DNA of 64,000 nt from NCBI GenBank assembly GCA_950295325.1, contig OX485803.1, forward strand, positions 9,610,001 to 9,674,000. The letters are read 5' to 3'. Of this stretch, positions 35,321 through 59,100 are shown piece by piece. This stretch comes from Polytrichum commune. Taxonomy: Eukaryota; Streptophyta; Polytrichopsida; Polytrichales; Polytrichaceae. The position numbers and the translations under genes are program-made. Below the pieces are notes generated by a model. That model searched no databases. It saw only the letters and a list, made by a program, of their open reading frames with translations, and was not told where the DNA came from. How positions within the stretch are numbered: position 1 is the stretch's first letter; the number at the start of each line of letters is the position of its first letter.

Positions 35321-35390
35321 AGGAGGTTGAGCTCTTAGAGCTCGGAAAAATGCGGGAATTAGGTAGGGACTTAGTTCGGATGCTGATACA

Positions 35391-36005: not shown

Positions 36006-36807
36006 TAAGACCGGGTAGGAGGCCGGGTATGGGAAAATGCTAAGATCACTTATTATGGGGGTTACTTAATTAGAAAGGGGGGGAAGATTTAACTAGGAGT
36101 TCAACTCATTAGTGAGTTAGGGTAGTTTGGCTTCACACAAATTAGAGGGTGGCATAGTATGAGCCCAAAATGAGTGCTCATATTTGTTTTATGTTTAGAA
36201 CTTATTTAGGATTGCATTTGGAGTGTTATTAAAACAATCAAAAGCATAAAAAGAGTGAGGCTTGGTGTGGATTTGTGTTTAGGCCTTAAGCCATTTTGTG
36301 TGGTGAATTAGAAGCTTAGTAACATTAGGGAGTGTTTTGATTAGAGGAGTAATGCTTGATGAGGCAAGGGGAAGTGGCTTTGATTTAAATGTTTGAATTA
36401 GAACATGTTCTTGTTGGTTTAGGGGGTGAGGGCTTAGTGGATAGGATAAGAGCCTACTAAGTAGGAGAGGATCAAGGGGGCTTGTGGGCTTGGGGGGCAC
36501 TCACCTCTTCCCTTCCCTCTTCCATTATCTTCTTGGCTCTCTCTTCTCTCTCTCTCTTTTCTCCCTTGGTGTTCCGTGTGGACGTGGGTGTGGATGTGTG
36601 TGGAGCCAAGGGAGGCACGGAGGAGTGCAAGTTCTCTTGGCGGAGAACTGGGGCCAACCGGTTGCAAAGTTAGTTTTTATGGTTAAGTTTATAATGTTCA
36701 ATATATAGTCTTTAGTTTGTAGTGTTTAGTCACAATATTTAGTTGTGTTAATTAGATATAGATTTAGTTTTAGTTGTGTTGATTAGATATAGATTTAGTT
36801 TAATTCT

Positions 36808-37099
36808 GGTTAAGCCGGTAAGGCTACTGGTTCGACCAGCAGAGAGCTGGGTTAAGCCGGCAAGGTTACTGTTCGGCCAGCAGAGAGCTGGGTTAAGCCG
36901 GCAAGGTTACTGTTCGGCTAGCAGAGAGTTGGGTTAAGCCGGCAAGGTTACTGTTCAGCCAGCAGAGAGCTAGGTTAAGCCGGCAAGGTTACTGTTCGGC
37001 CAGCAGAGAGCTGGGTTAAGCCGGTAAGGCTACTGGTTCGGCCAGCAGAGAGTTGGGTTAAGCCGGGAAGGCTACTGGTTCGGCCAACAGAGAGTTGGG
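36808..37099. repeat. Minisatellite, unit 41-42 bp
   Basis: Seven copies of GGTTAAGCCGGCAAGGTTAC followed by 'tgttcggccagcagagagctg'. It occupies, in the second terminal-repeat copy, the position that a different minisatellite occupies in the first. Confidence 0.95.
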
Positions 37100-38043: not shown

Positions 38044-38777
38044 GTCATATGATTGTACCAAGAGGGAAAACAAAAAGGAGTTCAATTCATTGCCGGGGAA
38101 CATTCTTCGTTGTTTGCTGTTGTGGCTGATATTTACAAGGAGGCCAAAGCAAGTCACGGAGTGGTAGGACCAATCCCAGTCATCTTAGCTGAAGACAAGA
38201 CAAAAGTTAAGTCCCATATTTCTTGGGACGCTCGGTCAGATGGATTGGTAGGCTTTTGTGGAGAAAAGGAGAATCATGTGTGCATCTCTATTTTCAGACC
38301 GCAAATAGGGAATGGTGAGAGTGGATATTCATCCATAGTTGATTCTTTCCGAATGAATCTCAAAGGAAATTTTGCTCGTGTCATCATGGTCAATCATTTG
38401 CATGATAAGTTGCCCAGACTTGTACTTGTTGTGTCATGCACTTGCAATCGATTTAATTCCAGTTGGGTGAGAAGTCAGTGGGAGACTATTGACACCCTTT
38501 GGCAAGACAGTTGTGGGCCGGTTGTTGGACCTATTATAGGGCATTCTTTAGATGGCGACTCTAGGAGAAGGCAGTTGATGGTTGAAGACTACTGCAACAA
38601 GGTAGGATTCGGGTATGAAATTCCATGGGAAGGCTGGTCTTCATCTTGTGAGTGGCTTGGGGAGAATAAAATTAAAGGCTTGCATGATCAGGATTTCATC
38701 CATAACGGAAACAAATTGATCAACCCACTTGACAGTGTTGTAAAGAACCTTCAACTAGGGGTTGATGTCTGTTACCT
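38044..38777 (+). pseudogene. Middle part of the degraded DDE-type transposase
   Basis: This block resumes the transposase directly after the LTR-type insertion: joining across the 5-bp target copy gives FGGPSYD in frame. A one-base frame change follows near 38,070 (RENKK then GVQFIAGEH). The next residues look like a catalytic core, with candidate acidic residues in AEDKTKVKSHISWDA (about 38,190) and GHSLDGDSRRRQLM (about 38,540-38,580), separated by FARVIMVNHLHDKLPRLVLV. The block runs to VDVCYL, where the Mutator-like element is inserted at the 10-bp site TCTGTTACCT; LDHLG follows in frame on the far side. Confidence 0.78.
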
Positions 38778-38832
38778 GAGGGAAGCTATTTTATGAGCGA
38801 TGAGCAGTGAGCGGTGAGCGGTGAGCAGTAAC
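38778..38832 (+). repeat. Left terminal inverted repeat of the giant MULE
   Basis: After GAGGGAAGCTAT the end is built from GAGCRGT-type heptamers (GAGCGAT, GAGCAGT, GAGCGGT twice). These continue past the repeat as ATGAGCAATGAATAG copies to about 38,870. Such subterminal arrays are typical binding sites for a transposase. The 10-bp target duplication precedes it. Confidence 0.9.
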
Positions 38833-38959
38833 ACATGAGCAATGAATAGTAACATATGAGCAATGAATCCAAATTTAGTAAAGACACACGGGTTTAGGGT
38901 ACACAACCAAGTTTTTGACAAATTAATTGCATATTTTCAATTGTAAATTGCCAATATTT

Positions 38960-39175
38960 TAAATGAAGCAGAAGTCAAAGGGCCCTATTTCCATGGATCA
39001 TTTAAAACACTTTCAATCCATTGCTGGTTTTTATTATAATAATCCAAACCAATACATGTCATTTATTGACATCCTTATACATGTAGTTACAACCAACACT
39101 TGCACAACTACTCACATTCCACAACACCAGCAAGTTCAAGTAGGTGCATAACCTCATTATATGTACATGTAGGTG
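38960..39175 (-). pseudogene. Extra copy of the 3' end of the MULE transposase gene
   Basis: About 210 bp match 40,965-41,160 in the same orientation (TTTTTATTATAATAATCCAAA, ATGTCATTTATTGACAT). On the minus strand the copy encodes a second version of the transposase C-terminus (TYNEVMHLLELAGVVECE) plus its 3' flank. The duplicates lie on either side of the SINE-like and solo LTR-type insertions, so the element's left arm has undergone a local duplication. Confidence 0.8.
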
Positions 39176-39274
39176 TCATAATTGTGAGCCACTCAAACCA
39201 CTCACGGGTTGAGTTAAGGCCCAAAATCTACAAAAGAAAGGAAATTATATATTAGAAATAGTCAATATGTAGGT

Positions 39275-39480
39275 AACTACTAGGTTTTGAGACATCCGCC
39301 TATGGATGCGAGTTGTGTAAGAGACTGGTATTAGGTATGGATCAACCCGGGTTCGAATCCGGTTGGTTACATTGACTGGTGCTATCCCAAATTGAGCTAG
39401 TGATAAAGCAGGAATAATCTATAGGCGGATACCAAGAAGACGTTACTACGCGGATGTGCGTAGAATCTTCTCAATTTTAT
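39275..39480 (+). mobile_element. tRNA-derived SINE-like element
   Basis: It contains a perfect polymerase III B box, GGTTCGAATCC (39,350-39,360), in a T-arm-like context (CCGG before, CCGG after), a plausible A-box region upstream (TGGATGCGAGTTG), and a T-rich 3' tail (TTCTCAATTTTATTTTATTT). A full cloverleaf is not convincing, so it is a SINE rather than a tRNA gene. Target duplications were not identified. Confidence 0.6.
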
Positions 39481-39530
39481 TTTATTTTTAGAAACTTTTT
39501 TATTATTTATCCGTGTGAATCAATCAAACA

Positions 39531-40930
39531 TGTGAGCTAGGATCACCCCCACCCTTAACTGCGTCGTAATGCAGGTGGGGGATCACCCTTTCACAGTTTG
39601 TAACATGTCCACCTCCAATGGTGGTCCTTTCCACCTCGAGGTGACCCTTAATAATGAATAACCGTTTACTTTATTACTAATACTCATGCGTGTCATAACA
39701 TGAACGTGAGAATCAACACATTAAGTCACACATTAGTTTTTCACCTAAATTCCTAGCTTAACTATCACCCTTCACTACTTCACTAATATTACTGCCTTAG
39801 CTTAACTCGGTTAATCCAGCTTTGTTCTCAGTTGGCCGTTGTCCTTTCATGCCCTTGGGCCTAATCACAACCAGCTCCTAGCCTCTTAGACCAACCCCGT
39901 TACTGGCCCTGTTACCGGCCATGTTACCAGCCGTGGCTAGGCTGATCCCTTGCACCCTTCCTACCACACGCGGCTCTCGCCTATCTGGTTTGAGCACCCT
40001 TCCCCTGCGCTCACAACTGTTGAGACCCCAGCCACAGCTCTCGGCCATGCAGCCATTAATTCACATTTGTTCACACTATGACCCCCTCGCATTTGTGCAA
40101 CCTCCTCTCTGTGCTGATTCACCATTTAAATGAGGCTTGTGGCCTGGGCTCTTCCCCGCTCAATTTTGATCATTCTTCACATTAGTCATGTTGTAGTGCC
40201 CTCCGAACCATTTGGTTCAAACATTGTTGGTTGCAACCTGTGGAATTCACCTTCTCCTTTCCAGCTCACCCCTGCATTGCGGCATTGTGCCAAGTTCTTT
40301 TTGGAAGGCCGAGGCCTCCAGGCATTCGAATTCAAACAATGCCTATCCCAGCTGCGCCCTCGGCAACCTCTATCATTTGCTCCAGCTTAGCCTCCAACCT
40401 CCTTCCCCTCCTTGGCAAAGCACTTCCTCCTCATTCTCGGCGGCACCCACCTAGCTCCCTACTAACTCCTCCAGCATCCATCACCAGCCTCGCATTCGGC
40501 AGCGCCTTACTCCTCAGCGGCAGCGTCCCCCTCCCCCTGCTAGCTTGCTTGTTTGAGAGAGAGCTTAGTTGTGAGAGCGGCGACCTCAATCGCGCCTGTC
40601 CGAGTCCCTGGATCCGCATTTTACTAGGGTGCAGTGGCACCTGCCTAATTCGAACAGTTCCCAAGCATTTTCAAGTCACATAAACCCCAGGTTTACAAGG
40701 CCTAAGGTCTAAGCCTAAGAACCACCTTAATCACCTCCTAGTCAATTCCCTTACACCTGCTCTCATTATTCAAACACTGAGTACTAACCTCCTATCCCTA
40801 ACGTTAATTCTAACACAACTCCAATCCTCCACATTTTTTATGTTTTAATTAATTGATGAAAACTCCAAACCTAAGTTTTAATGTGTTTTTCAGCTTGAGA
40901 ACACATGTGGCCACATAGTTTGGGCTCACA
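39531..40930 (-). mobile_element. Solo LTR-type repeat (fossil)
   Basis: Read on the minus strand it starts TGTGAGCCCAAACT and ends with a GACGCAGTTAAGGGTGGG block followed by CTAGCTCACA. These match the start and end of the LTR-type element at 34,889-38,038, with its own GC-rich diverged middle. Flanks AAACA/AAACC form a 5-bp target duplication with one difference. At 1.4 kb with no internal domain, it is best read as a solo terminal repeat, older than or diverged from the other copy. Confidence 0.65.
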
Positions 40931-41089
40931 AAACCGCTCACGGTTGGGTCGTAGTCTAAATAGAAATGAAGTTACTAAATCATTTGAAATACTTTCAGTC
41001 CATTGCTAATTTTTATTATAATAATCCAAACGAAAACATGTCATTTATTGACATTCAAATATATGTTGCTTAATAGAACACTTGCAATA

Positions 41090-44000
41090 CTACTCACATT
41101 CTAGAATACCAGCAAGTTCAAGTAGTCGCATGACCTCATTATAGGTATATGTAGGTGCATGAATGAATTTGTCACTCTCGTAATCCACCTTGCACAAAAA
41201 TCTAAACACATAATAAAGATGTTTACAATACACCCATTTTCCTTCCTTTCCCAATGCATGAGAGGACATTTTCGTGAAGTCCGGGCATGTGCAATGCGGG
41301 ATGTCACCAATTGTGACACGGTATGTAATATCCTCTTTGGAGACAATGTTGATTATCACTCCAAAACCTGGATATGGAATGGCAGTCATCCCAACTACAA
41401 AATAACCATCCATGAGTCCGGCGCTCTCCCATTTGTTTTTGTGATCCGCTGTCGGTGCGGTCGGATTGCGACGAACTGTCTTTCCAAACCTGAATGTAGG
41501 GTGGGCATCCGGGTTGGGTGGCATACGAAAATGCGAACGAGGGATGGGAAGGGTTGCAATTGTAGAAAGCCTACGACGGGGGGATAATGCTTCCCTTTGC
41601 TGTAGTTGAAATCCGGCGTCCTCAAGCGCCAACACCTCCTCTCTTAATAGATTGGTGCCTATCTTCACCGGCCAAGTGTTAGGCATTATAGGCCAATCCA
41701 ACACATATTTCTTCTTACTACCACTCACACAACGCTTGATGTCGTCAGGGCAGAACCAAAATTCATACTCCACATTGTTGGGAGAGTGAAATTCTTTCTT
41801 GAACCCTTTGTATGTTGGAGCAGGTGTGCCATGTTTTCCAATACCGACTTTGGCATTGCACATCGTCCCTGTAATGGCATGTAATGCCCAACATCGTCTA
41901 GCTGAGTTGGGTGGCAATCTTGCAATTTGCCAATTGGAAGCAAGACAATCAGTCTCTAACACGGATGTAGTATGAGTCACACCTTGTTGTGCATAATTCA
42001 ATGATTCCTCTATGCGTTGACGAGTTGCACGAGTGTTAGGGCGAGGAATTGAAAAATTCACTTTGTCGGGTCGATGAGAATCGCAATCAGCACCCGGGGG
42101 CATGTTGAATTTTCGTTTGGTGGACCCAAATAGCTCGGACCCTTCCAATGCACAATTTCTAGTATTGACGTCTTCTGCCCCCGGGAAAGACTTCATGGCA
42201 TTAGCCAAAAATTTTGGATCTCCACACCTGGCAGCTGCCTTAAGTTTTAAGGATGCCGAATCAGGACCTTTACCATGAGACCCCCCTTTCAACCATGCAC
42301 GGTAATTCGCGATTTGCATGAAGGCACGGATCATGTCATCAACAATAGCTTCATACAGGCAAATCATCTTGTTGCCGGATTGTTGGAGCCATTTGTTATG
42401 AACAGTCTCGGCAAGGTTGCATGTTGGCATTTTTGCACGCTCATCTATTGTCATATCCTACGAACAACATACAAATACGGGGTTAAGAAAAACAAGACAC
42501 AAATTTATAAAAATGGAAAAAATACGGGGAAGTTCAATGACATTGAATAATGCAGTGTGGTATGCACTTACAAGTAGCATATGACCACCCCATTGTCTAT
42601 AACAGAAGTGCCAAAATCCCAACCACTCCGAAAGGCCAATGATGCCTTCCTCTGTGGCAGCTCCAAATGACAACCACCAAGAACGAATCACGTGATACTT
42701 AGTCTCGGCATCGTCCATTGTTACCGCGTCCTTGTAATCCTTGCATATTTGCTTGTGTTGAAACTGCAAGGATGGTTTGATATATTTTTGTGTCACCTTA
42801 TCCAAGCTTGTAGACCAATGGAAAAGGTATGTGCGTTCACGTGCGACCATGGGCAGGCTTGGATCGCCGTCCCCATAAACCATCCGCACCGCATTCCAAT
42901 TGGCTTGAGCACTGTCTGCCATGAACCCTTTGAAGTTTGTTTTTGGAACACCATTCTCGGCCATAACAGCATTCAGATTTTCCCAAAAGAGAGATTGTGC
43001 TGCACCATCTTCAGATTGCATGTCACAACACGCAATGGTCAACACCTTACAATATCGACTATCGTACACATGGCAAACCATTGTCGTCCAATCCTTCAAA
43101 CGTTTGACATGGTCAAACATGATCCAATAATTCTCCATATCTCCCCCGACTTGTATCCTCTTTACAAGCTCCACACCACTGCCCGGAAGGTCTACGGACA
43201 TCTTGAAAACAAAAACCTTGTCTTTCGATTGCCCTGGGAACCGACTATCATGGACGAACTTGAAAGCAGAATGGTCTTTGAGTGCCATAATACTATCCAT
43301 AGTTCCCATTCCACTACGCACAAAACGTTTTGGTCCAGATACAAAATTACGACAATTTGGGGAGGCTAAAGTGTTGAATTTGTCCATGACCACCTCTAAG
43401 GAAGAACCAACCAAGTGATGGCTTTCTCTAATTGTGGGAGATCTAAGAAGGTAATCGGCCAAGAATTGTTTGTTCGCGACCATCACTATGGCGGAATTTG
43501 TAGCTGTGGGTGTTTTCAACACTTCATTGGCAACGCACTGGTATGCCATGTCCAATGATTCACGACATGTAGACCAAGATGAATGCAAACTCTGGACATC
43601 CTAGCAGAGGCGGAATGAATGTATATAATGCGAGCAGGGCACAAAGCAATGCACACAGGTGTTGAACGACATACCTTACGATGGATAGTAGACCTAGTAG
43701 GGGCAACATTACCCACAATAAATGGCAGAGGGGTTGAACCGGCCCATTCAGTGTTGTTGCGCAGACCCCCATTGCGATGCATGTAATCACAGTAGTCATT
43801 AGGACATTGGAGATGACCTGCACAAGTAGAACGCCGAAAGGATAATTCAAAATCATTTTAGATATTCGTGGTTTTGGTGGTGCACCAAAGGTGACCGTCG
43901 CACATTTTATCCATACCACCCATGGAGCGGCCATACGTATTTGGAACTCCAAGTGCCACAGGGGGCAAGACAAATAAAACGTCGCCGTCAAAAGATGATG

Positions 44001-44694
44001 GCAAGTATTTGACATCACGGACATCTATATTGTCAAAATCAATGAATGCAAGATCAGACTTTGACCTTTTCCTAGACTTTGTGAACTTCAAAGCATCAAC
44101 GATAGTCAACCCTGTAGATGACGGTGAAGGGTGCAATGGAGGGCGCTGAGAAGGTGTCATACGGTGAACCAATGTGTTGCATATAGGACTGAATGGGGAT
44201 TTGGGAAGTTGTGAAGGAGTGGAGTTTTTACTTTCAAATGGAAATGACGATATGTCTGAAAGATCAACAGCAGCACAAATATCATCTTCTGAATTAGACA
44301 ACACTAATACACTATCATCATTGGGCTCCAACTTAACAGTTGCAACAGTGGGCATTTGAACTGTGGATGTACCGGATTCATTGGTCAATAAGACAGTTGG
44401 AGCTTGCATCTGCGATTCAGAAAGACCTATGATCCTAAATGAACCAGGCCCTAAAATCCACACAAATGCATATTTAGTTATGGTCTTTTGAACCAAAATC
44501 GTTTCATACACCTCTCCATCCGCAGAGTACATCTCTTGTTCTAAATACATGGTTCTTAGTTGGAGATTGAATCTCAAACTAAGCAAATCTTCCAAGACAC
44601 ACACAAAACCATCATCCTGAAGTGATAGCAGGAAAGGAACAAAGGATCCGGGAGCTCTAATGGTAGCCATGGAGAAAGAAAGCAATAGATGCAC
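41090..44694 (-). CDS. Mutator-like transposase with Cys/His finger and SWIM finger, intact
   Basis: Four exons join in phase with good splice sites: 44,694-43,896; 43,817-43,675; 43,600-42,572; 42,457-41,090 (TAG), giving 1,112 residues with no stop or frame break. An alternative start is MATIRAPG at 44,670. The exon 1/2 junction creates KMCDGHLQCPNDYCDYMH, a GCM/WRKY-like Cys/His finger as found before MULE cores. Exon 3 carries the core, with candidate acidic residues in MFDHVKR and FMADSAQANW, followed by YLFHW. Exon 4 holds a SWIM finger, IPHCTCPDF then VYCKHLYYVF (C-x-C...C-x-H), usual at MULE transposase C-termini. It is the only transposase between the inverted repeats and is divergent from the cargo. 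Intactness suggests recent activity. Confidence 0.85.
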
Positions 44695-45705
44695 GTTACA
44701 ATAATATTGGATGGGCGGAGATTATTATACTAAATGGTATGTACTAAAAAATGAGGTGTAGATCAAAACTTTGAATACTATAACATCCAATAATACACAA
44801 GTAGACAACTCACACTGACAGTCAAAGAATAGATTAGGCCAAACATAGAATCCTACACCAAATCCAATAAACTATCTCATTTGGAAACAAAACCATAGCG
44901 AACCCCAATGCACAAATGAGATGTGGATCTTAAGTCCATGACACCATAAGTCATGTCCATTATAACATTGGGAAGAATATATGAAGAAGAGATTTAACTA
45001 ATGTATATAACTTAATAAAAATATAAACTATTTAGAATATAGATCTATATATCTATATATCTATGTCTTTATGTCTATATGTCTCTGTCTATATCTCTAT
45101 ATCTCTATATCTATATCTATATATCTATATGTTTATATGTTTATATGTCTATAAATCTGTATATCTATATATGTATGAATTCCTAAATGAAAACGGAAGA
45201 AACGCGGGCATGGACATCATTAAAAAACGTGTTATATAATGAACAAATACATATGAATCGATAATAACAATTTGGCGAATAATTTCACTTTTTAAATGAT
45301 GTTGGGGAAGTGAAGGATTTAAACCCTATAACCTTCTTAGAATGTTCCCCAATCATGTGCAAAAAAATGATTTTGGAAAATTTCCAAAATGTACCATATA
45401 GGAAGATTTCCCAAAAATCTACGATATCCTCAATTTCAGAGTTTTTAGAAATTCATAAGAAATTGAAATTTAATGAAAAAAATCTAATTTTTTGTATATC
45501 ACTACATATGATGGATGTAACTATGAAAAAAAATTTCAAGCTAATTAATTTTAATATGTAGGAGATATACCTATTTAAAGTTTTCTAAAATCTGTAGGTT
45601 TTATATTTTTTTTTGTATTTTTTTTTCCCAACCTTTCATTTCCCTCTGAACCTAAATCCCTTTGCGTTCATGGCCGTCATGTTCACGGTTGCCACGGCCG
45701 AGGCG
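44695..45705. other. Divergent intergenic region between transposase and cargo genes, with microsatellite
   Basis: About 1 kb separates the transposase start from the cargo TATA box, so it should hold both promoters. It is AT-rich and includes an imperfect (TCTATA)n microsatellite at about 45,041-45,176 and T-runs near 45,610-45,630. No gene is seen; the 83-residue frame at 45,310-45,561 has AT-rich composition only. Confidence 0.6.
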
Positions 45706-45713
45706 TATAAATA
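45706..45713 (+). promoter_or_regulatory. TATA box of the cargo transcript
   Basis: TATAAATA stands alone in a GC-rich context (GCCGAGGCG upstream). It lies about 100 bp before the first palindrome and is followed by leader sequence with splice-like sites. Transcription would start near 45,740 toward the kinase and methyltransferase genes. Confidence 0.55.
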
Positions 45714-45812
45714 AGGATGAGAAGGTGTTTCTACAACAAACTTATATGAACGAGCTTCTGTTTAGCACTGCGTATGAGAGCAAGTTTGTAGAGAAGTTGC
45801 TTGTTGGACCTG

Positions 45813-46478
45813 CTTGTGCGCTAGCGTACAAGCCTGTATAAGGACTACTTCTGTTCATTTTTCCTTTCAATCCTTTCATTTACATAAGATTTGTTCAGTC
45901 CTGCTGCTGAGAGTTGTTTGTGCGCTGGCGCACAAACATCTTAGGACTTTTTTTGTTTACTTTGTTCTTTAGATCTATCATTTGCATACGATTTGTTGCG
46001 CCCTTCCGTTTGAAGTTGTTTGTGCGCTGGCGCACAAACATTCTTTAGGATTTTTTTCTGTTTACTTTGTTCTTTAGATCTATCATTTGCATACGATTTG
46101 TTGCACCCTTTTGTTGAAAGTTGTTTGTGCGCTGACGCACAAACATCCTTTATGACTATTTCTGTTTAGTTTGTCATTTAGATCTATCATTTGCATACGA
46201 TTTGTTGTGCCCTTCTGCTGGAAGTTGTTTATGCGCTAGCGCACACTCCTTTCGTAGTGCTTCAATTCATTTTTCTGCTTTAGTTCTTACATTTAGTTTA
46301 GGCTTCATTTCATTTTCTCTAGTTTGCACTTCATTTGCCTTGGTGTTGCATTCTGCTTGTGCGCTGGCGCACAACCATTAATCATGTATTTCTCCATTTA
46401 TTTTTTCTTTACTTATATTAATGCTTTTAAGCTTGTTATGCCCTGCTCCTGCTTTTTGGTTGTGCGCTAGCGCACAAC
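45813..46478 (+). repeat. Array of seven GTGCGC-NN-GCGCAC palindromes with regular spacing
   Basis: Near-perfect 20-bp palindromes of the form TTTGTGCGCTGGCGCACAAA begin at 45,813, 45,917, 46,019, 46,124, 46,228, 46,356 and 46,459. Spacings are 104, 102, 105, 104, 128 and 103 bp. The spacers are also related for several units (AGATCTATCATTTGCATACG, TTTGTT, 'cccttctgctgaaag'), so this is a tandem repeat of about 104 bp in which the palindrome is the best-kept part. It lies just downstream of the cargo TATA box. It could act as a DNA operator or, if transcribed, as a row of hairpins with about nine base pairs each. Confidence 0.9.
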
Positions 46479-46639
46479 CATCAATGAGGACTAGTATGTA
46501 TTAGGGTTTATCTACTAATATTTATTTGAATCTTATTCTTAATTGCTTTTAAAAATTTCACAACTTCTGTTTTGCTTTGTTGTTTACAATTTTTGTTTAT
46601 AATTAAATTTTGTTTTAATTGATATTCTGAACTTCATGT

Positions 46640-47346
46640 GCAGCACTACACCTCCGATCTGGTTGTGTGTCAAGTTCTAAGGCATCAACTATCATTCCAG
46701 GTATTTTTTCACTCCATTATGTTTTGTTTTGTTTAGCTTTATTTAATTTTTTTTTGCCTTGTTTTTTTTTTTTTATGGTTTTGTTTTGTCTTGCTTTGGC
46801 TTGCTTTGTTTTCTTCTAAATTCCGAATCCTCTCAGCTGGCGTGGATGGATGCTTTATGCTTCCTCAAGTCCTGGGTATTAGGACGTGTAATTATATCGT
46901 ACCCATCATTTCCAGCTGGTATGGTCCACATGATTATAATTTTCATGTACATAATCTGGATTTGATTTTTTACATTCAACTTCAAATGGCCCTAGCAGAT
47001 GTGGATGGATGTTTCATGCATTCTCACGTCCTAGGTGTTCATATATGTATTTCTATAATATATTTTCTTTCTATCCGCGTACCAATCCATTTTTGCACTT
47101 ACTTTTAAGATGTGTATCTAAATCCTATATTTTATTTCTTCAACATTAAGTATACAACCCATACTATATGGTAATTTCATGTGGTTTTATTGACTCTTAT
47201 ATGCAGGTATTCATTGTTCGTTGATGTTATCCTCAATAAACTATTCAAGGTAATTATTGCTTACAACTATGAAACCTCTTCTCAATAAGCCTAATCAAAT
47301 GGTTACTTTGAGTGTGCAAAACTTCCTTGTAGAATGGTAGGGTGAT
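46640..47346 (+). other. Probable spliced leader exons of the cargo transcript
   Basis: Exon-like pieces with good splice signals and no long frame are seen: about 46,644-46,701 (TGTGCAG before, CAG/GTATTT after) and about 47,209-47,250 (ATATGCAG before, CAAG/GTAATT after). A block with GTGGATGGATG is duplicated at about 46,838 and 47,000. A short upstream reading frame (starting MKPLLNKPNQ) at 47,271-47,339 precedes the kinase start. Confidence 0.4.
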
Positions 47347-48763
47347 ATGTCTTGGGATTCAATTCATCAAAATTTTGTGTCGATGGGTATGTCCGGCCCT
47401 ATCTTTTTGGATGAGCGTGTGAAGATCATGATTGATGATTGCATCTCGAGACGTTTTCCATCATGCAAAGAAATGTCCAATTATAATACTTGGAAAGACA
47501 ACGTCTCTTCTAATTTTGTTGGACAAATGCCCGATGTGGTTTCAAAGGTGCATCAGAAAGTCACGCATGATTGGACATTGGAAAAGTTAGAAGCGTAAAA
47601 AGTTAACTCCAATCGGTGGCGAGTGGAGATTCCACAACTCTTAAGACGTAGAAAAACTCATGTCAAAAATTTAAACCGTGTTGATCGACACGTCAATCCT
47701 GGAAGTGGTGCTTTTCTTTTTGCTTGGAGAGATGTTGTTATTGAGAAGCATGAACAACTAGGTCGTGGTTCATATGGAGTGGTGTGGAAATGTTTCATTA
47801 AGGACAATTCAGATACTGATCCATTCGTACCATATGCCATTAATTTTTTTTGGATCATAATGGAAATTCTCATCATGCAAGCATGAAAGAGTTCTATTCA
47901 GTGGCATCCATAGATCATGGTGGTGTTATCAAACCGTTTGTTTTCCAAACAACACCTGCACCTGCCATCTTCTTGCCCTATTGGAATGGTGGGACATTGG
48001 AAGATATGTTCAAAAGTGTGAAAGACCATGGAACTAATGAGTATGATGTTTTTCAACGTCTTACAATAGTCAAGAAAAATCATCCAGAACAAATTTCTAA
48101 AATTCAAGAATTGGAGCGGTTAAGGTTTTTCTTGTTAAACCGTTGTAGCTTTGCGATCACCTTCATGCAAATCATGGCCGATGTACTTACCATTCATAAT
48201 TTTTTCATTGTGATTTATCCTTTACAAACATCATATTCCATTTTGGTGAGATGGATGACAAAGATAAAATTTACATAGGCATTGGTGATTGGGGATCGGC
48301 AACAATATCGTCGGATAGACGACATTCAAATCATTTCTTGCAGTCTGAATCTTTGAGACATTCTAGGCTCCAAGAACGTTGGTGGGTAGATTCTGAGTTG
48401 TTCTTCACCAAAGACCACAATGCTCGTCCGTGCCACACCGAAAAAACAGAGTCATATTCTGTATTAAAGATTGCAGAGGCTATTTGGGGTTTATATGTCG
48501 ATCCAATATATCTCAAAGTCATTCACTCTCGTTCTTATAATCTTTTGCTATATTGTATTCGTCGAATGTCATGCACTTCAACCACGGAGCTTCGCATGAT
48601 CCCTACTGATGTCATGAATCGATTGTCTCACGAACCAGATTTTCATACTTTTCTCTTCAACAAACACATCCGGCAACGTTATCTTACTCTACCAGAACGG
48701 AATAGGGTTCATAGTCGTCAAATTGATTGTGATGATGAAATCCCTTCCAAATGTCGGAAATAG
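47347..48763 (+). pseudogene. Protein-kinase-like cargo gene with stop and frame changes
   Basis: Translation from MSWDSIHQNF shows no known domain for about 80 residues. The same frame has one TAA at 47,596 and continues into a kinase fold: glycine loop GRGSYGVVW (about 47,764), hinge-like YWNGGTLEDMF, catalytic loop readable as HCDLSFTNIIF, and GDWG in place of DFG (about 48,286). Two frame changes occur, each at a T-run (47,844-47,851 and 48,200-48,205), so homopolymer errors in the assembly are possible. The usual VAIK lysine reads as Asn (YAIN) next to the first run. The end is TAG, with AATAAAG 20 bp later. It is either a decayed kinase or an atypical one with sequence errors. It lies head to tail with, and about 135 bp before, the methyltransferase gene. 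Confidence 0.7.
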
Positions 48764-48898
48764 ATTATACATTTTTATATTAATAAAGTATTGGATTTGT
48801 AAAATCCATTATGTATTATTTTGAAATATATATACGATGAAGTTATTTCTATCATTTTTTGTTTGCATTTTCATTTATGTTTTTTGTTTGCAGAAAAT

Positions 48899-51800
48899 AT
48901 GTTTCCTAAAGGAAAACTAAAAGACCCATCTTCCAATACGTTACAACCTCTCTCGCCAAAAATACAAACTATCCATCAACAAGGCGTTAAATCAACAACT
49001 AGGAAAAGAAGACAAGGTGAAAACTCCACCCTTACGCGAAGGTCTCATCGCAACAAGGGACTTCAACATGATGTTGTTCTTGAAACAGTGGAAGAAGATT
49101 GTGCATCTTCCATGCATTCAAACGATCAACCACAAGTCCATTCTAAAGAAAATACAATAACATTGTCGCAAAGATTGAAGCCACTTTTGGGACAACATCA
49201 AAATATCACTGAAGATGTTGCAACAAAAATTGTGGATAATATTGTGGATTTAGTTGCAGAACAAGTTATTGAGGAATCCACTTTAGAGAAATCGCATCAA
49301 GAAAATCAAGACAATCTGCAATATGATGATACACAAGACTCTCAAGAGAATCAACATTTTCAAGTGACACAAACTTCTCCAGAGAATCAACAATTTCAGG
49401 AGACACAAACTTCTCCAAAAAATCAACACTTTCAAGAGACACCAGATTCTCAACATACTGAACAATTTCAAGAACAACAATTTTCTCTTGTGAATCAACG
49501 ATCACAGCATAGAGAGCATTCTTTGACATTGTCTCAAGGGACAATATCCACATCTCAATTTATTGGTGGAACTTCTGAAGGTGTAACTAATCGACGCAAA
49601 AAAAGAAGGTAAATTTTATTTTCATTTGTATTAAACGGTTTGAATTTTTTTAATTTATATATATTCTCTATTATTATTAGGTTTATATTCTCTTACATAC
49701 ATGAATATTATGCAGAGTGGAAAAAATGATATTCATGAAGGATTATGGACACCTCCGCCTACATTGGAGAACCCAGCTGAACATGAAGGGAAATCCATCA
49801 AGTACACGAGAATGAAACTCTTGGAGCGAAAACAAAAAATCAACTCGACATTGAGTGATATATGTGTCATGAAATATCCTGTGCCTATCCCTTTGTGTCG
49901 AATGATTGGCATGGAGGTGGTTAGGCCCACATTGGACGATGATGTATCAATTTTGTCACGTTCGTTTCTCAATGGTTATATTCCTGGGTTTGCATCATTT
50001 TATGTCTTGGTAGAGCATTAAGAGGGATACACGATTGATGTCAATGATGACATTGTGAATGAATGGGATGAAATTTGGAAACAAAAAAATGAAGAATTTG
50101 AAGCCTATCTGACAGAGCATGGTTTGCATGCATTCAAAAATAAAATGTTTCACATTTGGGATGGAAATCATCCCTTTAAAGCGTGGTACAATACCAAAGA
50201 GATGAAGTTGGGTGGTGTTGAATATCATATAAGCCCTACATCGATAATATTTGATGGACGAAAAGAAAATCACTCTGTTATCACATGTCTCTGCGATGAT
50301 ATCAACATGTAAGTATTTTATTCATTTCTATTTTGATTATCTTATATTGTTAATTTTCTTTACATGTTTCATCTTTAAATTTTTTAAATTTTTATATTTA
50401 TGTTTATATTTTGAAATGATTCAGATCAACAGAGAAAAATGTTGTCAAACCTCGATTCATTCACACACTCTTCAAAGTGACAAAATATGGAAGTCAACCG
50501 CTGGAATGGTGGGAAGGAAGGATTAGTCCTGAGCAAATGGCTTTGTGCAAAAAGAAAAAATCAGTAAATTCCAAAAAGTGGTATAATGTCACACAAGAGA
50601 TCTTGGTCAAACATATTTACAAGGTAAATTTTGTATTTCCTTATTTCTTTAACTATGTCAATTCATATTTATGGATTTCTAGATTTTCTTTCTTTATGCT
50701 CATCAATACTTTGTATTGTACAGAGTGAAATTGAGGACGAGGTTGCAAAAGCAACTGAAAACTATATCAACTTGGAGGTTGCAGATCACATCGGATTGCA
50801 ACAAATAATTGCAACAGCGTCACAATTCATCAAAACTAAAAAACGGTTAACACTGGTTAAAATTTTGGCCATCGCTGATCCCGAAAATGGCACAGAGTTT
50901 TTTGATGAAATCAAAAAACACTATGACAAAAATGGAGACAATGTGCAAATGACCCTTGATCGCCTCCATCTTTTTTGTCAATCTCAGGTTGATTCCAAAG
51001 AGAAAACGAATTGGCTAAAGCTCTGGAATGCTAATGATGACACAAAACATGCTGCATCGTTTCCTTTAGAAATTGGAGGAAATGATGCATTGGATCCATG
51101 GCTGACAAGAAGAACATTTTGGTGGCAGATATTTATATATGAAGTTTACTATTTGATATGTGATATATTTATGTATCAGATATATAATATATATGTATGT
51201 TTGATATATGTATTATGTTACATAACTATTTGTATATTGTATATTAATTATTTTTATGTATGTTATACAACTCAAAGAGGAGGCATACAAAAAAATTGAC
51301 TACTACATCAATCATGATGATGCAACACAACGATTGGTGTTGGACAATATGACTTCGGATGTTCCGGATGTTGTCTCATATATTAGAACATGGGAGGAAA
51401 AAATTGGGAACATGGCCTTTTTAGTGGAAATACCCACTAAGGTGAATGCAAAGACTGTGTGGAGGAACAATATATGGAAAGATCAACCAGGTTTTGCTGC
51501 AATCATGTGTCGTATAATTTATCGATACATTAAATTCATTTTGATTGCAAATGGAAAACTTCGAGGTCGTCCATCATGGTGGTCTTCTTGGACACTTGCA
51601 GAAGGAATGCTTTGGAATATTGAACAAAGAAAATGGCCATCTGCACATCGCGAAGGGGGAGGTTGGTATTTGGACCTTCCCAACGGTTCTTTACTAGAAG
51701 AAGAAACACAATTGTTTCAAGATTGCAATGCAAGAGTTGAAGAACAAAGAAGTGTTGGTATTAATGTGGGTGAAATGCCAACATTTGAAACCGAACAACC

Positions 51801-53271
51801 ATCGGAGTCCTCCAAACAACCATCGCAGTCTTCCAGACCACATATTCAATTGAGGAAAAAAAGAAAAATAATCGATACAAAAAATGACGAACAAGATATT
51901 GTCCCAAATCCAAAGCCACCAAGTGGTCGAGTGTCGTCAAGATCACAAATTGCAACTGTACCAAAACCGGGAAGAAATCTTGATTTTATTCCCAAGGTAG
52001 GCCTTGTTAAAGGTGATTGGTACGATTGTCATGTTTTTTATGAAAAACACAAAAAAACATCTCCTGATTTCAAAAAATTGATGTCATGGATGAAAGATGT
52101 TTCTTTGGGTAAAGTAAACAACGTGAATGGAATTGTTACCAAAGCATGTGTGGACCTAATTATCGTTGATATTCCATATGGGATGCCAATCCATGGTATT
52201 GACGAAGGGCGTACTATTCCTTCTTGGATGCAATTGAAGACAGATGAATGGTGGGAGACATTGTTTGATTTTTTGGAATCAATACTTTCAGACAATGGTT
52301 GCACGCTTATCATGTGCAATGCCAAGATGCCAAGACTGCAAGAAAAAATTGTGAGTTATGCACTAGGGACCAAAGATCGTCCAAAACATTTTTGTTTAAG
52401 GGAGCATGTCAAAACATTCACAATTGTGAACTGTTTACCACAAAATGCTCCTAACGGTATCCAAACTGCTCTTTCCAACATTCTTCTCTTGAAGAAACCA
52501 TCTAGTTCATTTGCCCTCTCGGATGCTGCTAGCTACATAGATCCATTTGTGGACATCAAACAATTGGATGTTTTGTTCAATCAAATAACGAACACAAACA
52601 TGTGTTTGAACCAATGTAGACAACCTTGGAGGGGAGCTAAAGAAAAAAACCCTTTGATTATGCAACAACTCATTGAAGCATGTTCTCCATTACATGGTCG
52701 TATATTGGATTTGTCCGTGGGGACAGGTGCAAGTTTTCACGCTGCAAAAGAAAGTGAAAGACATATTTTTGGTTTTAAAGCAGACGAAGAAATACACATG
52801 GGGTTATTGGATGATTTATTCCAGAGTTTGAATGTTGAAGCATCCAATGTATTTCAAGCACCCTCAGAACCTTCCTCAAGTATTGGTCCAAATTTTGAGG
52901 ATGTAGCTCCAAAGCAAGGGCGCAAATTTGTGGCCATCAATGTATCTGATTCTGAATAGTGAGTAAGTCTTCAAGCTATTGCAAATTTCATACAATGAAT
53001 TTGCATGTGTACATTTATTTTTCAATATATTACTTAAACTCATATTAATATTGTTTTTTTTTGCATGATTAGCATTGGATTGAAAGATTGGTTTGCAAAA
53101 GTACCAGCAACTCCAAATTTTGTACAAGATCTACCAATATATGCAAAGTCAATGGCACAACACATGGCACAACAACAAGAAGTTTCACTAGAGTCATCAA
53201 GCCAATCAACGGATCTTCATCCTAGACGATTAGTAGAAATGTTCATGGACATAGAGGCCCATGAAGAATGA
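48899..53271 (+). CDS. Beta-class amino-methyltransferase protein (DNA N4-cytosine/N6-adenine type), cargo, one internal stop
   Basis: Six exons join in phase: 48,899-49,608; 49,718-50,308; 50,425-50,623; 50,724-51,143 (approximate); 51,280-52,958; 53,073-53,271, about 1,265 residues with a single in-frame TAA at 50,019. The N-terminus is basic (TTRKRRQGENSTLTRR), then has Gln-rich repeats of 12 residues (SPENQQFQETQT type). The middle is unrecognised. The C-terminal part is a methyltransferase: motif IV DIPYG (52,168-52,182), motif X-like KNPLIMQQLIEACSP, motif I DLSVGTG (52,708-52,728), then HIFGFKADE. The order IV...X...I is that of bacterial beta-class enzymes that methylate N4-cytosine or N6-adenine. 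The exon 5 donor lies inside GAATAG, so the apparent stop at 52,957 is spliced out. Base target cannot be told from sequence; an RNA or protein substrate is less likely. Confidence 0.78.
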
Positions 53272-53889
53272 AACTTTACATATATATTATGAAGATGTAT
53301 GTTGAGAGTTCTCCAATGCCAAGTTTTCAATTGGGTTCTAATAATTAAAATCATTATATATCTAATGTTTTGACTCTTCAATGTTTGTTGTTGTACATAT
53401 AGTCTTCAATTTTCCACAAATATATATATATTCAATACCACGGTCATGAACATGCACCTGTAATTAGGTTTGGTTGTGATGAAATTCTTTGTGGTATTTT
53501 GTACAAGTTGCATATTATGCACCCACTATATTTGAGTGCACACAGGATTGCACCCAAATCCATGCACCCATGCACCAATTCATTGTTAAATTCATTGTTG
53601 ATTATTTTGCTACAATTGATGATATTATTGAACCGCAAAATAAAACATGTGGATGCAATAATTTATCTATAGTTGAAATAAAGATGTATTTATATATGAT
53701 AAATGTATATATGCCCATAGTCATGTGGGATTTTTTTCTTCTCATTGCTCACTTCTCACAATGTTGCTTATCATCCCCACACCTCTCCCTATTAAACCCT
53801 AAAATCAAAAACTTTTATGCCAAAATTCCACGGTTATAGGATACTAGTGGCCCTATTACCAAATATTTCACATTCCTCACCGCTCACAA
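53272..53889. other. 3' flank of the methyltransferase gene and right subterminal region
   Basis: AT-rich sequence with no supported gene. The frame at 53,489-53,839 shows nothing recognisable. GCTCAC-type heptamers begin near 53,880 and lead into the right terminal repeat. Confidence 0.55.
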
Positions 53890-53944
53890 GTTACCACTCA
53901 TTGCTCACCGCTCATTGTTCACCGCTCACAAGATAGCACTCCCC
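53890..53944 (-). repeat. Right terminal inverted repeat of the giant MULE
   Basis: The inverse of the left end, with heptamers CTCACCG/CTCATTG and terminus AAGATAGCACTCCCC, followed by the 10-bp target copy TCTGTTACCT (53,945-53,954). Confidence 0.9.
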
Positions 53945-55748
53945 TCTGTTACCTAGATCATCTTGGTCAGGTTTATCAAAAGTTTGGTATTGATCAGCAT
54001 GGTCTTAGAAAGGAAGATGTGGACGGAATAGACAGACAAAATTGGGCTAGTGCACAACGCATTTGTGCAAAGAAGGCAAGGATTTGCTTGTACGAACTCA
54101 GAACTTGTAAGGACGCACATCAGGAAAGAACTTTGGGGACTGAGCTGTACTTGTCTATATGTGCTGACTATATCGATATTTTCCTTTCTGTGTCCTTGGC
54201 TTTGAGGGAGAGGGTGGTTCTTGCTAGCAAAGTGTCATTCTTTTTTAGAATATGGAAGTTGTGGTTCCACCATGGTGACCACGGTGTAGGAGGAAATACA
54301 AAGAATCTCACGCTACAGGAATGCTTTGTGAGCAACCAGTGCTATCTTGATGTGCAGCTGTCTTGCCATTTTGTGGTCTTACTGATAAGGTATTTTCGTG
54401 ATGGATTCTCTCACTTGCTAGTTCCACTCCACTCACAGGATCTGATTCGAGTGAAATTTTTTTTAGCAAGGTGGGAGGGATGTAGGGTATGGAGAGAGCT
54501 TACGATTTCCAGGAGCTTGTGGGTTGTGCTAACACAGTGAACCAACTTGCTGCGATTGAATACGGACCCAATGGACTGCAATTTGGTAGAACGCATAACA
54601 AGCAGTGAAACATTTGGGCTAACTTGCATCCTTTAGAACGGTGACAGTCCCCTACAAATTTGGGAGATTACAGCGCCCTTGCCATAGATGAGGACTCCGT
54701 ATCAGCGTTGAAGGAAGGTCTAAAGGCAACCCAAGCCCAATTGAAGGTGTTGAATATGGCTCCATCCTCTTATGCTAGAAATAAACGGTGGTTCTTGCAG
54801 CCTTGGATGGTCGAGAGGGCGGATCCAAAGCACCGGGCATATGTGGCTCCCGAAAAACCTGTCCCCGGTGAAGATGGCGATGGTGAGGTCATGAGGGACT
54901 CCAAAATTTTGCCGATGGAAGAAGAGACCATGGATGGTGACGGCGCCAACGTAGACCCGGATATGAGTGTTGTGGACATTAACGTGGATATGAGTATTGT
55001 GGACGCTTCTTTGGATGACATGGAAGAAATTTTAAGACTTGTTGAGGAGGAATGCAGGGATGCAATCTCGCAAATGCTAGATTCAGCTGAGCCGAGCCCA
55101 CCAATGCCTCCAACTGGGCAGAACCTTGTACATAAAATAGAGCCGGTGGTGGAGTACAAGGGCAGGGCCATTTACAAATCAACGTTAGTAGGTGAATTGA
55201 ATGGGAATCCTTTCTTGTCAAAGGACTGCTTGACTCGCATCAAGAACTCTATTTACTTCAATAACGCAGAGGATTGCTTTTCTGCTGCAAATTCGACATC
55301 AACCACTTTCCTTGGACTTGGAAGTGACTGCGTTGTGTTGTTCATGCAATCACCAACTTTGGGCCAGACTTATGGAGTGAGAGCAACACAGAAGAGGAAC
55401 CGCACCAGTGCTCATGTGGGACACCCGACTGCTGTGACCGTTGGCCCGGACATTGGCACTTGGTGGCTAGGCCGAGTCCAAAAAATGCGAAGGACGGTTG
55501 GAAAAACGTGGAGATTGTGTAGAAACCCTATCGACCTTATGGCTCACACCTCTACAGGTAAGAAGGGAAGTTCTTCATCGTCCATTCAAATAATGTTGAA
55601 TTGGTTCAAATCAGCGTCGGGGAGGAACAAATACAAGTACGATGTGACTGACACCCAATGGATTGACATTGAAAGCGTGATTTGCATCATTGCATTGTCA
55701 TTCAAATCTAATAGCAACGTTTACACCCTACAAGAGACTGATCGGTAG
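53945..55748 (+). pseudogene. C-terminal part of the degraded DDE-type transposase
   Basis: The frame continues from the block that ends at 38,777: VDVCYL then DHLGQVYQKFGIDQHGL. Segments follow that are well kept in this family as I remember it: RQNWASAQRIC, DIFLS, ASKVSFFFRIWKLW, HGDHGVGGNTKNLTL, CFVSNQCYLDVQLSCHFVV. Between about 54,440 and 54,665 it changes frame at least twice and has a TGA (54,606), through a part readable as ERAYDFQELVGCANTV and NQLAAIEYGPNGLQF. The open frame from 54,660 (MGDYSALAID...) then carries on to a TAG at 55,748, with FLSKDCLTRIKNSIYFNN, TWWLGRVQKMRRTVG and TDTQWIDIESV. It is clearly decayed, more so than the inserted giant element. Confidence 0.75.
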
Positions 55749-55936
55749 GTGCATGCTAGATGAATTTGTGTCAAAAACTACTTAGCATTGCAGGTTATTT
55801 AAGTAGCTACGGATTTATCTTTATTTTTCAGTGTCTCCATGATATGCACATTTAGTTTCATTCATTGTGTTTGTAAACACAATGAGAACATTTTATTTCA
55901 TATAACTATGATTGTGCACAAATACTTTGTAAATTG

Positions 55937-56157
55937 GAGTTATCCTAAAAGTCAAGTGGCGTTTGAACAAGATATCATGTGTTTTGATTTAATGTACTCT
56001 TATTTGTTCATTGTAAATAGTTATGAAGTTTGAAAGAACTTGGTGGTCCCTCATTGGAGTTAATTTAAAAGTCAAGTGGCGTTTGAACAAGATGCCATGT
56101 GTTTTGATTTAATGTACTCTTATTTGTTCAAACGCCACTTGACTTTTAGGATAACTC
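55937..56157. repeat. Palindromic terminal block, right copy
   Basis: It starts GAGTTATCCTAAAAGTCAAG, repeats that block with changes at 56,053, and ends with its inverse (CTTGACTTTTAGGATAACTC). Together with the block at 30,762-31,119 it brackets the degraded DNA transposon. Flanks (AATTG/TATTG) would also allow a separate MITE insertion. Confidence 0.7.
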
Positions 56158-59100
56158 TATTGTGTTTCATAATATGAATGATTTCATACTAAAGGTTTGT
56201 ATTGTTTTTACGTGATCTATACAAATTGCTCTTTTATATCATTTACACTTTAACCTACATTGTTTGATTTCATGTATGTGTTCATAATTTGATGTAGGAC
56301 AAAAACTGTAGTAGAATTTTTTTTAAATCTAAATTACCATATCGTTTATTCATATCAATTTGGAATTATAAGTAATGCAAGCCCCTTTTCTATTAACCCA
56401 AAGTAGAAAATTACATAATGATAGCACGTGAAAAAAAGAAAAGAAAAAGTAATACCCCCCTATAAAATAGTGGTTGTTCGCATCTATATCCTTAACTTTT
56501 TAACACACTAACCCCCCCGAGACTTTCGATCATCATAACTAAAACAAGGGAGGTTCAATTTTCAATCCAGTTTTTCCCAGATGTTTCATTGTGAAATTTG
56601 ATTGGTAAAAAATGAAGAACATGAAAAAAAAACCCTGCACAATACCCACTTACAATACCTTAGTGAGTGCTCATGCCTTCAAGCATGTGTCATGGTTGGT
56701 CCTTGACCCATATGCTAAGGGTCAGTTTATAGAAGGGTTCTTGACCAAATATTGTCTCATGTGATGGTTAGAATAACACAAAATCAAGTAAGATTCACCT
56801 AAGCTCCAATCTATGATTACAACATAATAAAGTGTGTGGAAAGATCATGGAATAGAACCGTATATGCAAACATTTTATGCAAATACTAAGATGGATATTT
56901 TGATTAAATTTTCATTATTTATCAATTATTTATACATATGCAACATAAAAATAAGTTAATAATTCTCATCATATGTCAAGAATAGTCAGATTAGGCAACT
57001 TGTTTTGGCTAAATGAGACGATTTATGCTAGTCATATGAGTTGATTCTCAATATGTTGCCAGTGGCCAAATTTTTGTGTGGAATTGAAATGCCCACTATA
57101 GAGCCACATACCTCTAGTCAAGAAGAATGATACCACAACTAATGGTTTCACCCAATTATCCACGGGGTGACACTTAGTGTGACTTACGAGAACCACGTGT
57201 GATGAGGGTATAATAGTTTGGTGAGGGTATTATCTTGCTCACAAATGATTAATGACCCATTCACTTAGGTAATTATGTAATTATGCATATTTTGTAGTAC
57301 CTTTCTATTACTTTGAAAGGCTAGGGTTAGTTATTTTCATGTACCATGTTTTTGTTATAAATGAACATGTGACCGTTAAAATTATGCTATGTCCTATGAT
57401 TAATTGTGACATGTGGCCAATTCTAGTTGCATGTCTGATTGAGGCCAAACTTTGGCTCATTTCAAAAACCAACTCAAAAGGTGTTATTTAAAACCTTGGG
57501 CGGAAGTCTCTTGCCCAGTAGCAACATTTCACAATCTCAAAGTAGATTGACAAGTATTGAAGACAATGCCGGTGATGGAGCCGACTCAAACATAAAGGAT
57601 CACCTAGCATCTTTCGTTGATGGACACAAGTCAGAAAGCAAAGATGCAACATTTCTTGATTTTTAATTTTTTAATTTTTAGATTATATTTTGAGACTTGA
57701 GCATGAGAAGGACGCCAAGGACGAAAACTTAGAGTTGGATTTAGATGCCACTTTGGAAGAGGACTTTCGTTCAACTACAAAGATTTGGAAGGAAACTGGT
57801 GAGGTTTCGAAGGAGGGTGAGGTCAATCATGAATTAAAGAAGGCATCACAAGAGGAGCTTGATAACCACAACCCAAAGCTTGTAGATTCACAAGAAGACA
57901 TAGAAACTTGAAAGACAAAGATACCTAACATATATATGAAGATAGCGAAACATGAAATCAAGGAAATTCCAATTCGAAATTGAAGAGAGTTTACAATGAT
58001 GCTAGTAGGCTTGGGCATACGGAATGTCGAGGATTGTAAACCAATCTCACCATGCGCATACACCAAACTCTCAAAATGCAATGCCACGACCTAAACCAAT
58101 CTCTTCCATGTTGCTTACCTAAACCCATCATCCAACATTCTTCCAAAAAAAAAAATTCATTCACTATGGGTGGGACGGGGGAATGTATGCACTATACCAC
58201 TTTGCAATATTTCTATACCATGGTAATTTAGAAATAGTAGAAACCTAATTTCATGGAATATATAACACCCTACACTATGTTGAACTCAAAGTCACATATT
58301 CTATCTATAAAACCACTTCAACTTTTTGGACACAATCATAAACAAAAAGACTCTATCCTTGGCTGCGTGTAGTCTCTAAATTTTGGGGGATGTCGGCCCC
58401 ATGCAATTACTCTTGATTCATCTTGGTGCATTTACACCCAAACACTCCCACCTAGACAAGAAAATAATATGGCCAAGGCCTTCATTTTTGAGGTCCACAA
58501 TAAACCTAAAGATCTCTCTCCACTTGACGCTAAAATGGTTGTTATGAAGTCCATAAGCCTTTTTAGGTGCCTTATCTTCCCACATGTACACTATCCAATA
58601 AGTGACCCTAGTTGGTGGGTGACATGGCAGGTCATAAAGCTGGTTATCTTACATCACAATTGTTGAACCCCTTGGCCTTAATATCCTGCTCCCAAGTATT
58701 TCGTATCAACAAATGAGCTGCCAAAAACTCATACCCTTGGCTGAGCATTGAAGTTAGATCGGACAGATTGTATTCATTGTATTATGGTTAATATCATTAT
58801 GTATAATTTTCAATTTTGTAATAATATTCCTTTCCTTTTGGTTAATTCTTTGAAATTCTAAAATAAGAATTTATTTATGACAAAGTGGGATATGATTATG
58901 TAGATGGTTGCATAGGTAATTTTGGTGAAACTACTTTAATTAAAGTAGTAGTACTTGTAGTAATTGTGATTGCCGTCGCCCATGCAATGTTGGAAGCGAG
59001 CCAGACGAAATTAAGTCGTCATATAATTAAAGTAGGTCTTCAAATTAGGTTGGCCTTTGCTAGTCATCACTTAACTGACAAGAGAGGGGCAATAAATCAT

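Follow-up and report, generated by a model that had tools for sequence, protein, structure and literature searches.

What kind of mobile element encloses both a kinase-like gene and a DNA methyltransferase gene, and do such genes act on the DNA that carries them? The question is raised by 15,167 bp of Polytrichum commune DNA at positions 38778-53944 of a 64,000-nucleotide window (assembly GCA_950295325.1, contig OX485803.1, positions 9,610,001 to 9,674,000 of the forward strand; coordinates below are those of the window), which an earlier note had described as a Mutator-like element (MULE) with two cargo genes. The stretch is a transposon insertion with inverted ends, a target site duplication, an empty site that can be restored, an open transposase gene, cargo genes on the opposite strand and an array of palindromes. 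Tentatively, and with slightly less than even confidence, we read it as a MULE-like cut-and-paste transposon seated in a reading frame, in which an accessory module of a kinase-like gene and a DNA amino-methyltransferase gene would mark the element's own DNA against silencing.

Element boundaries and insertion site

The element was delimited by its inverted ends and target site duplication. The left terminal inverted repeat (TIR; 38778-38840, + strand) reads GAGGGAAGCTATTTT... from 38778 and consists mostly of degenerate TGAGCRR units, the right TIR (53882-53944, - strand) reads GGGGAGTGCTATCTT... as the reverse complement from 53944, and the two are identical at 47 of 63 bases (blastn of the ends against each other, E = 8e-8). 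The best ungapped local alignment of the ends matched 44 of 56 positions with a score of 52; when both 400-bp ends were shuffled 500 times by mononucleotide, the highest score was 30. Part of the identity is due to the degenerate TGAGCRR units common to both ends, to which there are 7 exact matches within ~104 bp of the left terminus and 4 within the same distance of the right. The 10-bp target site duplication TCTGTTACCT, which is unstranded, is present in two exactly matching copies (38768-38777 and 53945-53954) that abut the two ends, with no further exact copy on either strand of the window. Both the inverted ends and the exact 10-bp duplication had been claimed in the earlier note, and both are borne out.

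Joining 38053-38777 to 53955-54540, and so removing the element with one duplication, gave a single 436-codon frame without internal stop, showing that the insertion is real and that it interrupted a reading frame. Neither half of this frame has acquired a stop, which makes a recent insertion probable. Pfam gave no match to the interrupted frame at E values of 1 or below.

Transposase gene and superfamily

The transposase gene (41090-44670, - strand) was modeled with GT..AG introns as four exons (44670-43896, 43817-43675, 43600-42572 and 42457-41090) of 1104 codons in all. It is open, as had been stated: the frame contains no internal stop, compared with 47 and 80 stops in the remaining two frames across the same exons. 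Judged by eye, the first donor (GTCACC) is a weak one. Near the C terminus, residues 1038-1062 (41219-41293, - strand) form a SWIM-type finger, CxC...CxH, which scored below threshold against PF04434 (14.0 bits, cut-off 19.6, E 0.039); the CxC...CxH pattern also arose in 71 of 5000 shuffles. Searching PDB by sequence with the transposase core gave nothing significant (best E 0.37).

The element is probably a MULE, a placement made because of the 10-bp duplication, the ends and the weak SWIM finger and not because of a match to a transposase domain. Some MULEs lack TIRs altogether, and a SWIM or other zinc finger in the transposase is frequent among them without being universal. A Pack-MULE consists of host gene fragments inside MULE ends, with no transposase gene; here the transposase is open over 1104 codons and the cargo includes a complete-looking gene of six exons. 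The description of a MULE-like element with cargo unlike that of a Pack-MULE is supported, this cargo including a DNA amino-methyltransferase. Target duplications of MULEs measure 8-11 bp according to the excerpts of PMC6446971 (this and the papers below are cited from excerpts), a range that contains the 10-bp duplication found here, and a table in that paper gives TIRs from ~20 to several hundred bp and lists SWIM fingers.

Cargo genes

Two cargo genes lie inside the same ends, as reported earlier; they are divergent from the transposase and not from each other, both being on the + strand. The DNA amino-methyltransferase gene (48899-53271, + strand) was modeled as six exons (48899-49608, 49718-50308, 50425-50623, 50724-51143, 51280-52958 and 53073-53271) with 1265 codons, including one in-frame TAA (50019-50021); the junction of exons 4 and 5 has a weak donor and is uncertain. 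The frame contains 2 stops, 1 internal and 1 terminal, compared with 58 and 91 in the alternative frames. Searched as a 243-aa core, the N6_N4_Mtase domain (52150-52797, + strand) scored 34.9 bits against PF01555, above the cut-off of 26.7 (E 1.9e-8); the single reading frame scored 32.4 bits. Within the domain, motif IV reads DIPYG (52168-52182, + strand) and is followed from ~52705 (+ strand) by LDLSVGTG, a motif of the S-adenosylmethionine (AdoMet) type, in the order of PF01555; the second residue of motif IV is I, not P. Active amino-methyltransferases have a catalytic (D/S/N)PP(Y/F/W) motif and an AdoMet motif of the FxGxG type.

Other searches with this protein returned weak matches. Four of six PHROG matches were named DNA methyltransferase (E 0.002-0.24 for those four), and five of six PDB matches of the core were methyltransferases, with two DpnA and one tRNA enzyme (E 0.019-0.73). 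By sequence, nothing in PDB was significant for the core (best E 0.019) or for the methyltransferase exon (best E 0.3). When phages were searched with the core by tblastn (E 0.02-10), methylase or methyltransferase genes lay under 16 of 17 matches and the 17th was unannotated; these 17 weak records were 21-36% identical and included several duplicates. A ParB domain was also considered for this protein, in which a GNH-type stretch, WDGNHPFKAW, is ParB-like by eye only. The idea was unsupported, with no ParB-like domain detected by Pfam (E up to 10) or by a profile built from 13 phage ParB-methylases, although a strongly diverged one might escape both.

The kinase-like gene (47347-48763, + strand) was read through in three frames. 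The read-through matched Pkinase with 26.6 bits, below the cut-off of 31.7 (E 4.9e-6), its two pieces scanned separately gave no Pfam match, and a search of PDB by sequence gave none at E up to 0.01. Active protein kinases contain the VAIK lysine, an HxD...N loop and a DFG-type aspartate. In this gene a G-loop, HCDLSFTN and GDWG are readable, and AIN stands where AIK is expected, so that the VAIK lysine is missing. Three lesions interrupt the frame: an in-frame TAA at 47596 and two frame changes of one base each, in T runs near 47845 and near 48200. Sequencing errors in homopolymers could account for both frame changes, but less readily for the TAA or the lost lysine. A working kinase is probably no longer produced by this copy, which may yield a truncated methyltransferase. 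Given the three lesions and missing lysine of the one gene and the nonsense codon of the other, it probably supplies neither full protein. Of the kinase-like and methyltransferase-like genes proposed earlier, the domains are thus upheld, the first below and the second above the Pfam cut-off, and the genes are broken, the first by three lesions and the second by one TAA.

Palindrome array

Between the transposase and the cargo, which form divergent units, lies an array absent from the earlier account. A pattern scan of the window found seven copies of an unstranded 18-bp palindrome, TTGTGCGC-TR-GCGCACAA, within 45814-46477, starting at 45814, 45918, 46020, 46125, 46229, 46357 and 46460 (spacings 104, 102, 105, 104, 128 and 103 bp, or typically ~103 bp). 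Even with as many as 4 substitutions tolerated, a scan of the entire + strand of the window returned just these seven sites. The palindromes are better kept than their flanks: pairwise identity averaged 0.905 within the palindrome against 0.516 for the remaining columns, with the palindrome ahead in 21 of 21 pairs, values that come from non-independent pairs and are biased upward by the use of the palindrome itself to find the copies. The palindrome was the best conserved among 95 windows of 18 columns and is kept even in the copies with the most divergent flanks. The window is also rich in unrelated short inverted repeats: those of the form 8-2-8 with at most one mismatch number 56, 6 of them in the array.

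Proposed self-marking of the element

In the self-marking reading, the transposase would bind the TGAGC-rich ends and move the element, as its likely family relationships suggest. The methyltransferase, judged from its family, would place N6-methyladenine (6mA) or N4-methylcytosine (4mC) on the element's own DNA, and its long non-catalytic N-terminal part is a possible DNA-binding region. Methylation would most plausibly fall on or close to the palindromes that separate the divergent genes, and might keep this region accessible and oppose host silencing by cytosine methylation, two steps suggested by position and precedent only. The kinase could tune the transposase, the methyltransferase or host chromatin proteins. 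With its kinase apparently dead and a nonsense codon in its methyltransferase, this copy would either rely on other copies or be heading to silencing; its transposase could still act. In favor of this reading count the ends and duplication, the restored host frame, the open transposase, the methyltransferase and kinase matches, the lack of nested ends around the cargo and the conserved palindromes, together with three precedents seen in excerpts, the Ectocarpus Sola1 enzyme, the kinase and TET/JBP genes of IS3EU and the motif arrays bound by VANC. The earlier note had likewise suggested that the cargo modifies DNA, perhaps that of the element's own ends, and this idea of self-modification agrees with the algal proposals and resembles VANC; its further suggestion of a stable autonomous lineage is not supported by this single copy, which probably supplies neither cargo protein in full.

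A number of results weigh against this reading. No Pfam transposase domain was found in the transposase at E up to 10, where the sub-threshold SWIM finger was the only match and no KDZ-type model appeared; Pfam contains MULE, FAR1 and KDZ models. AlphaFold, run on single sequences, gave a predicted local distance difference test (pLDDT) value of 38 for the putative transposase core and 34 for the second model, both too low to be of use. On the whole 1265-codon methyltransferase protein, PF01555 scored 25.1 bits, slightly below the cut-off of 26.7. The methyltransferase half of the phage ParB-methylase profile scored 4.1 bits, which was reached in 7 of 2000 shuffles, so that the Pfam match stays the main evidence for this enzyme. 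All four lesions (two frame changes and two nonsense codons) fall in the 5.2 kb of cargo and none in the 4.6 kb of transposase and interrupted host frame. The array is only a candidate target of the methyltransferase, proposed from position and precedent. The TIRs are short beside those usual for MULEs, which are commonly hundreds of bp, yet within the range of the table (PMC6446971). The catalytic motifs of known enzymes given in the excerpts of PMC8885841 are SPPY, DPPY, DPPY/F, NPPY and DPPW, and since DIPYG is outside these forms, the activity of the methyltransferase is uncertain.

Also to be counted here, the element is known from one copy and no relatives were found in non-plant collections. 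Viral contigs were scanned with exon 5 of the methyltransferase, the putative core and the C-terminal exon of the transposase, and the kinase N terminus, and prokaryote genome contigs with the same exon 5 and transposase core; neither yielded a relative at the thresholds applied, in scans based on exact peptide patterns, which detect close relatives only. At the thresholds used, phages contained no relative of methyltransferase exon 5 or of exons 2-3, and plasmids none of exon 5. Because the collections searched (viral, prokaryote, phage and plasmid) do not include plant genomes, these results say little about how widespread the element is. Titles and openings of abstracts in the open-access literature revealed no plant MULE that carries both a methyltransferase and a kinase; the text of PMC6446971 has no word starting with methyltransferase or kinase, and that of PMC8226300 has no ParB.

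A more specific version, which we consider doubtful, is a plant Mutator lineage with a two-part writing system, in which the methyltransferase marks the palindromes with 6mA or 4mC, host silencing by 5-methylcytosine (5mC) fails there and the kinase times the marking. If this were true, the system would correspond to VANC but act by self-marking, and the enzyme of algal Sola1 would be in use in a second superfamily of transposons. Should the module be retained in other copies, plant transposons may be adding a second type of mark to their own DNA, the origin of plant 6mA and 4mC would become testable, the use of amino-methylation by transposons to escape 5mC silencing could be tested in the same system, and similar cargo would recur across transposon superfamilies from brown algae to plants.

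Alternative explanations

The serious rival, though on balance an unlikely one, is one-off capture followed by decay: an ordinary MULE would have taken up two adjoining genes, in the manner of Pack-MULE transduplication, that were never useful to it and are now decaying. Lesions in both cargo genes beside an open transposase count in its favor. The kinase makes up 14% of the coding length compared and carries 3 of the 4 lesions (binomial P ~0.01), and the placement of all 4 in the cargo has P ~0.08, both values being based on small numbers and an assumed even lesion rate. GC content at third codon positions also sets the methyltransferase apart, at 0.31, from the transposase (0.42) and the interrupted host frame (0.43). 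However, the methyltransferase gene, with six exons, 1265 codons and a single nonsense codon, is no mere fragment, and a conserved motif array lies between the two units. The same kind of enzyme is also found in the same opposite orientation in an Ectocarpus transposon of another superfamily (excerpts of PMC12477816), which argues for self-marking and against a single accident.

Composite or nested origin is improbable. Here another mobile element, or recombination of two related MULEs, would have brought in the cargo, and the present ends would enclose it accidentally. The left end does contain an extra, diverged copy of the 3′ end of the transposase gene (38997-39175, - strand), including YNEVMHLLELAGVVECE and then a stop, which is 84% identical to the first copy (151 of 179 positions of 40979-41157, E 7e-53) and 1,982 bp from it; the left 2 kb must therefore have been shaped by one or more events of recombination, duplication or nested insertion. 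However, no second pair of ends and no target duplications surround the cargo, and the outermost ends and duplication restore the host frame exactly, so that a single insertion accounts for the outer ends. Among 16 inverted pairs listed in the region, 5 join the outer ends to each other, 7 belong to the palindrome array and 4 are weak and short (71-80% complementary); apart from the outer ends, none brackets the cargo. Exact 12-mer inverted pairs separated by more than 1.5 kb number 15; a 6-bp flanking repeat is present in just 3 of them, which are AT-rich and overlap one another. A nested element around the cargo was accordingly rejected, as neither inner ends nor target duplications were present among the inverted pairs examined.

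Zisupton transposases bear a SWIM finger, and the Pfam search at E up to 10 matched no transposase model. It is nevertheless very improbable that the element belongs to a superfamily other than Mutator whose target duplications are long and whose transposase bears a SWIM finger, such as a KDZ relative or an undescribed one, because even though fungal Kyakuja, Dileera and Zisupton transposons bear DNA-modifying TET/JBP enzymes (excerpts of PMC12730594), KDZ-type Pfam models were likewise unmatched and the 10-bp duplication, the TIR range and the SWIM finger agree with MULEs as given in the excerpts of PMC6446971.

Other features of the element and window

Inside the element, 39270-39490 resembles a tRNA-derived short interspersed element, with a GGTTCGAATCC-type B box by eye; ARAGORN found no tRNA in this stretch, and the candidate flanking repeat is just 7 bp. 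Tandem repeats at 35390-36036 and 36789-37076, built of 38-bp and 41-bp units, lie upstream of the interrupted frame. Large inverted repeats with arms of 95-175 nt that are 81-96% complementary were found at 29715-31152, with a related copy at 55935-56175, ~25 kb away across the transposon; they are perhaps a foldback-type element. The stretch 23561-24460 (- strand) contains nitrite/sulfite reductase domains above cut-off and is probably a host gene. Among other frames of the window searched against Pfam, an AMPK1_CBM frame scored above and a DUF2996-like frame below cut-off, and the frames 33123-34940 and 54645-55745 had no match at E up to 1. The reductase, AMPK1_CBM and DUF2996-like frames, with the style of the introns, suggest a plant host. 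Scans of the whole window for tRNAs and Rfam families gave nothing.

Comparison with known systems

The systems compared here are described as in excerpts of the papers cited. Among mobile elements of the green lineage, retrotransposons of dinoflagellates and charophytes also carry a DNA methyltransferase, which differs in being a C5-cytosine enzyme on a retrotransposon carrier (PMC5890265). Bacterial-type amino-methyltransferases occur in other eukaryotes, namely the N4C methyltransferases of bdelloid rotifers and Marchantia, as acquired host genes and not as transposon cargo (PMC8885841, PMC12344493); the rotifer enzyme matches PF01555 and has the motif SPPY, where the enzyme described here has DIPYG (PMC8885841).

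Fungal TET/JBP transposons of the IS3EU and KDZ types resemble the element in placing a DNA-modifying enzyme in a DNA transposon. In TET-bearing IS3EU the TET/JBP gene sits between the transposase and alpha-kinase genes, and the kinase gene is opposite the transposase there too. The differences are that 5mC is oxidized instead of DNA being amino-methylated, that the kinase is an alpha-kinase, that the transposases are of other families and that the hosts are fungi (PMC12730594). VANDAL21 (Hiun) of Arabidopsis resembles the element, a probable MULE, in being a MULE with accessory genes and with tandem arrays of short motifs in its non-coding parts, where they are bound by VANC (PMC5735166), and VANDALs provide a case of element-specific escape from silencing (PMC5735166, PMC10398659). 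VANC, however, is a motif-binding anti-silencing protein and not a methyltransferase (PMC5735166, PMC10398659), VANDALs are termed non-TIR MULEs whereas TIRs are present here (PMC13317346), and the motif of our array is an 18-bp palindrome without known binding protein.

The closest counterpart is Sola1-1_Ec32 of the brown alga Ectocarpus, a large DNA transposon with an N4C/N6A methyltransferase gene on the strand opposite the transposase (PMC12477816). Its accessory protein (1104 aa, compared with 1265 codons here) joins a ParB-like domain to the N4C/N6A methyltransferase, similar transposons occur in green and red algae, and self-binding and self-modification of element DNA have been proposed for it (PMC12477816). 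The gene described here has the N6_N4_Mtase domain, inside the ends and opposite the transposase, and has no detectable ParB-like domain. It also differs in host, a plant instead of an alga, and in carrier, which is Sola1 in the alga and here shows duplications of 10 bp, ends rich in TGAGC and a SWIM-like finger, with an added, adjoining kinase gene and a palindrome array between the units (PMC12477816). An N4C/N6A methyltransferase opposite a transposase is thus already reported from algae; what appears to be new in Polytrichum commune is its occurrence in a probable MULE, with a kinase-like gene beside the enzyme.

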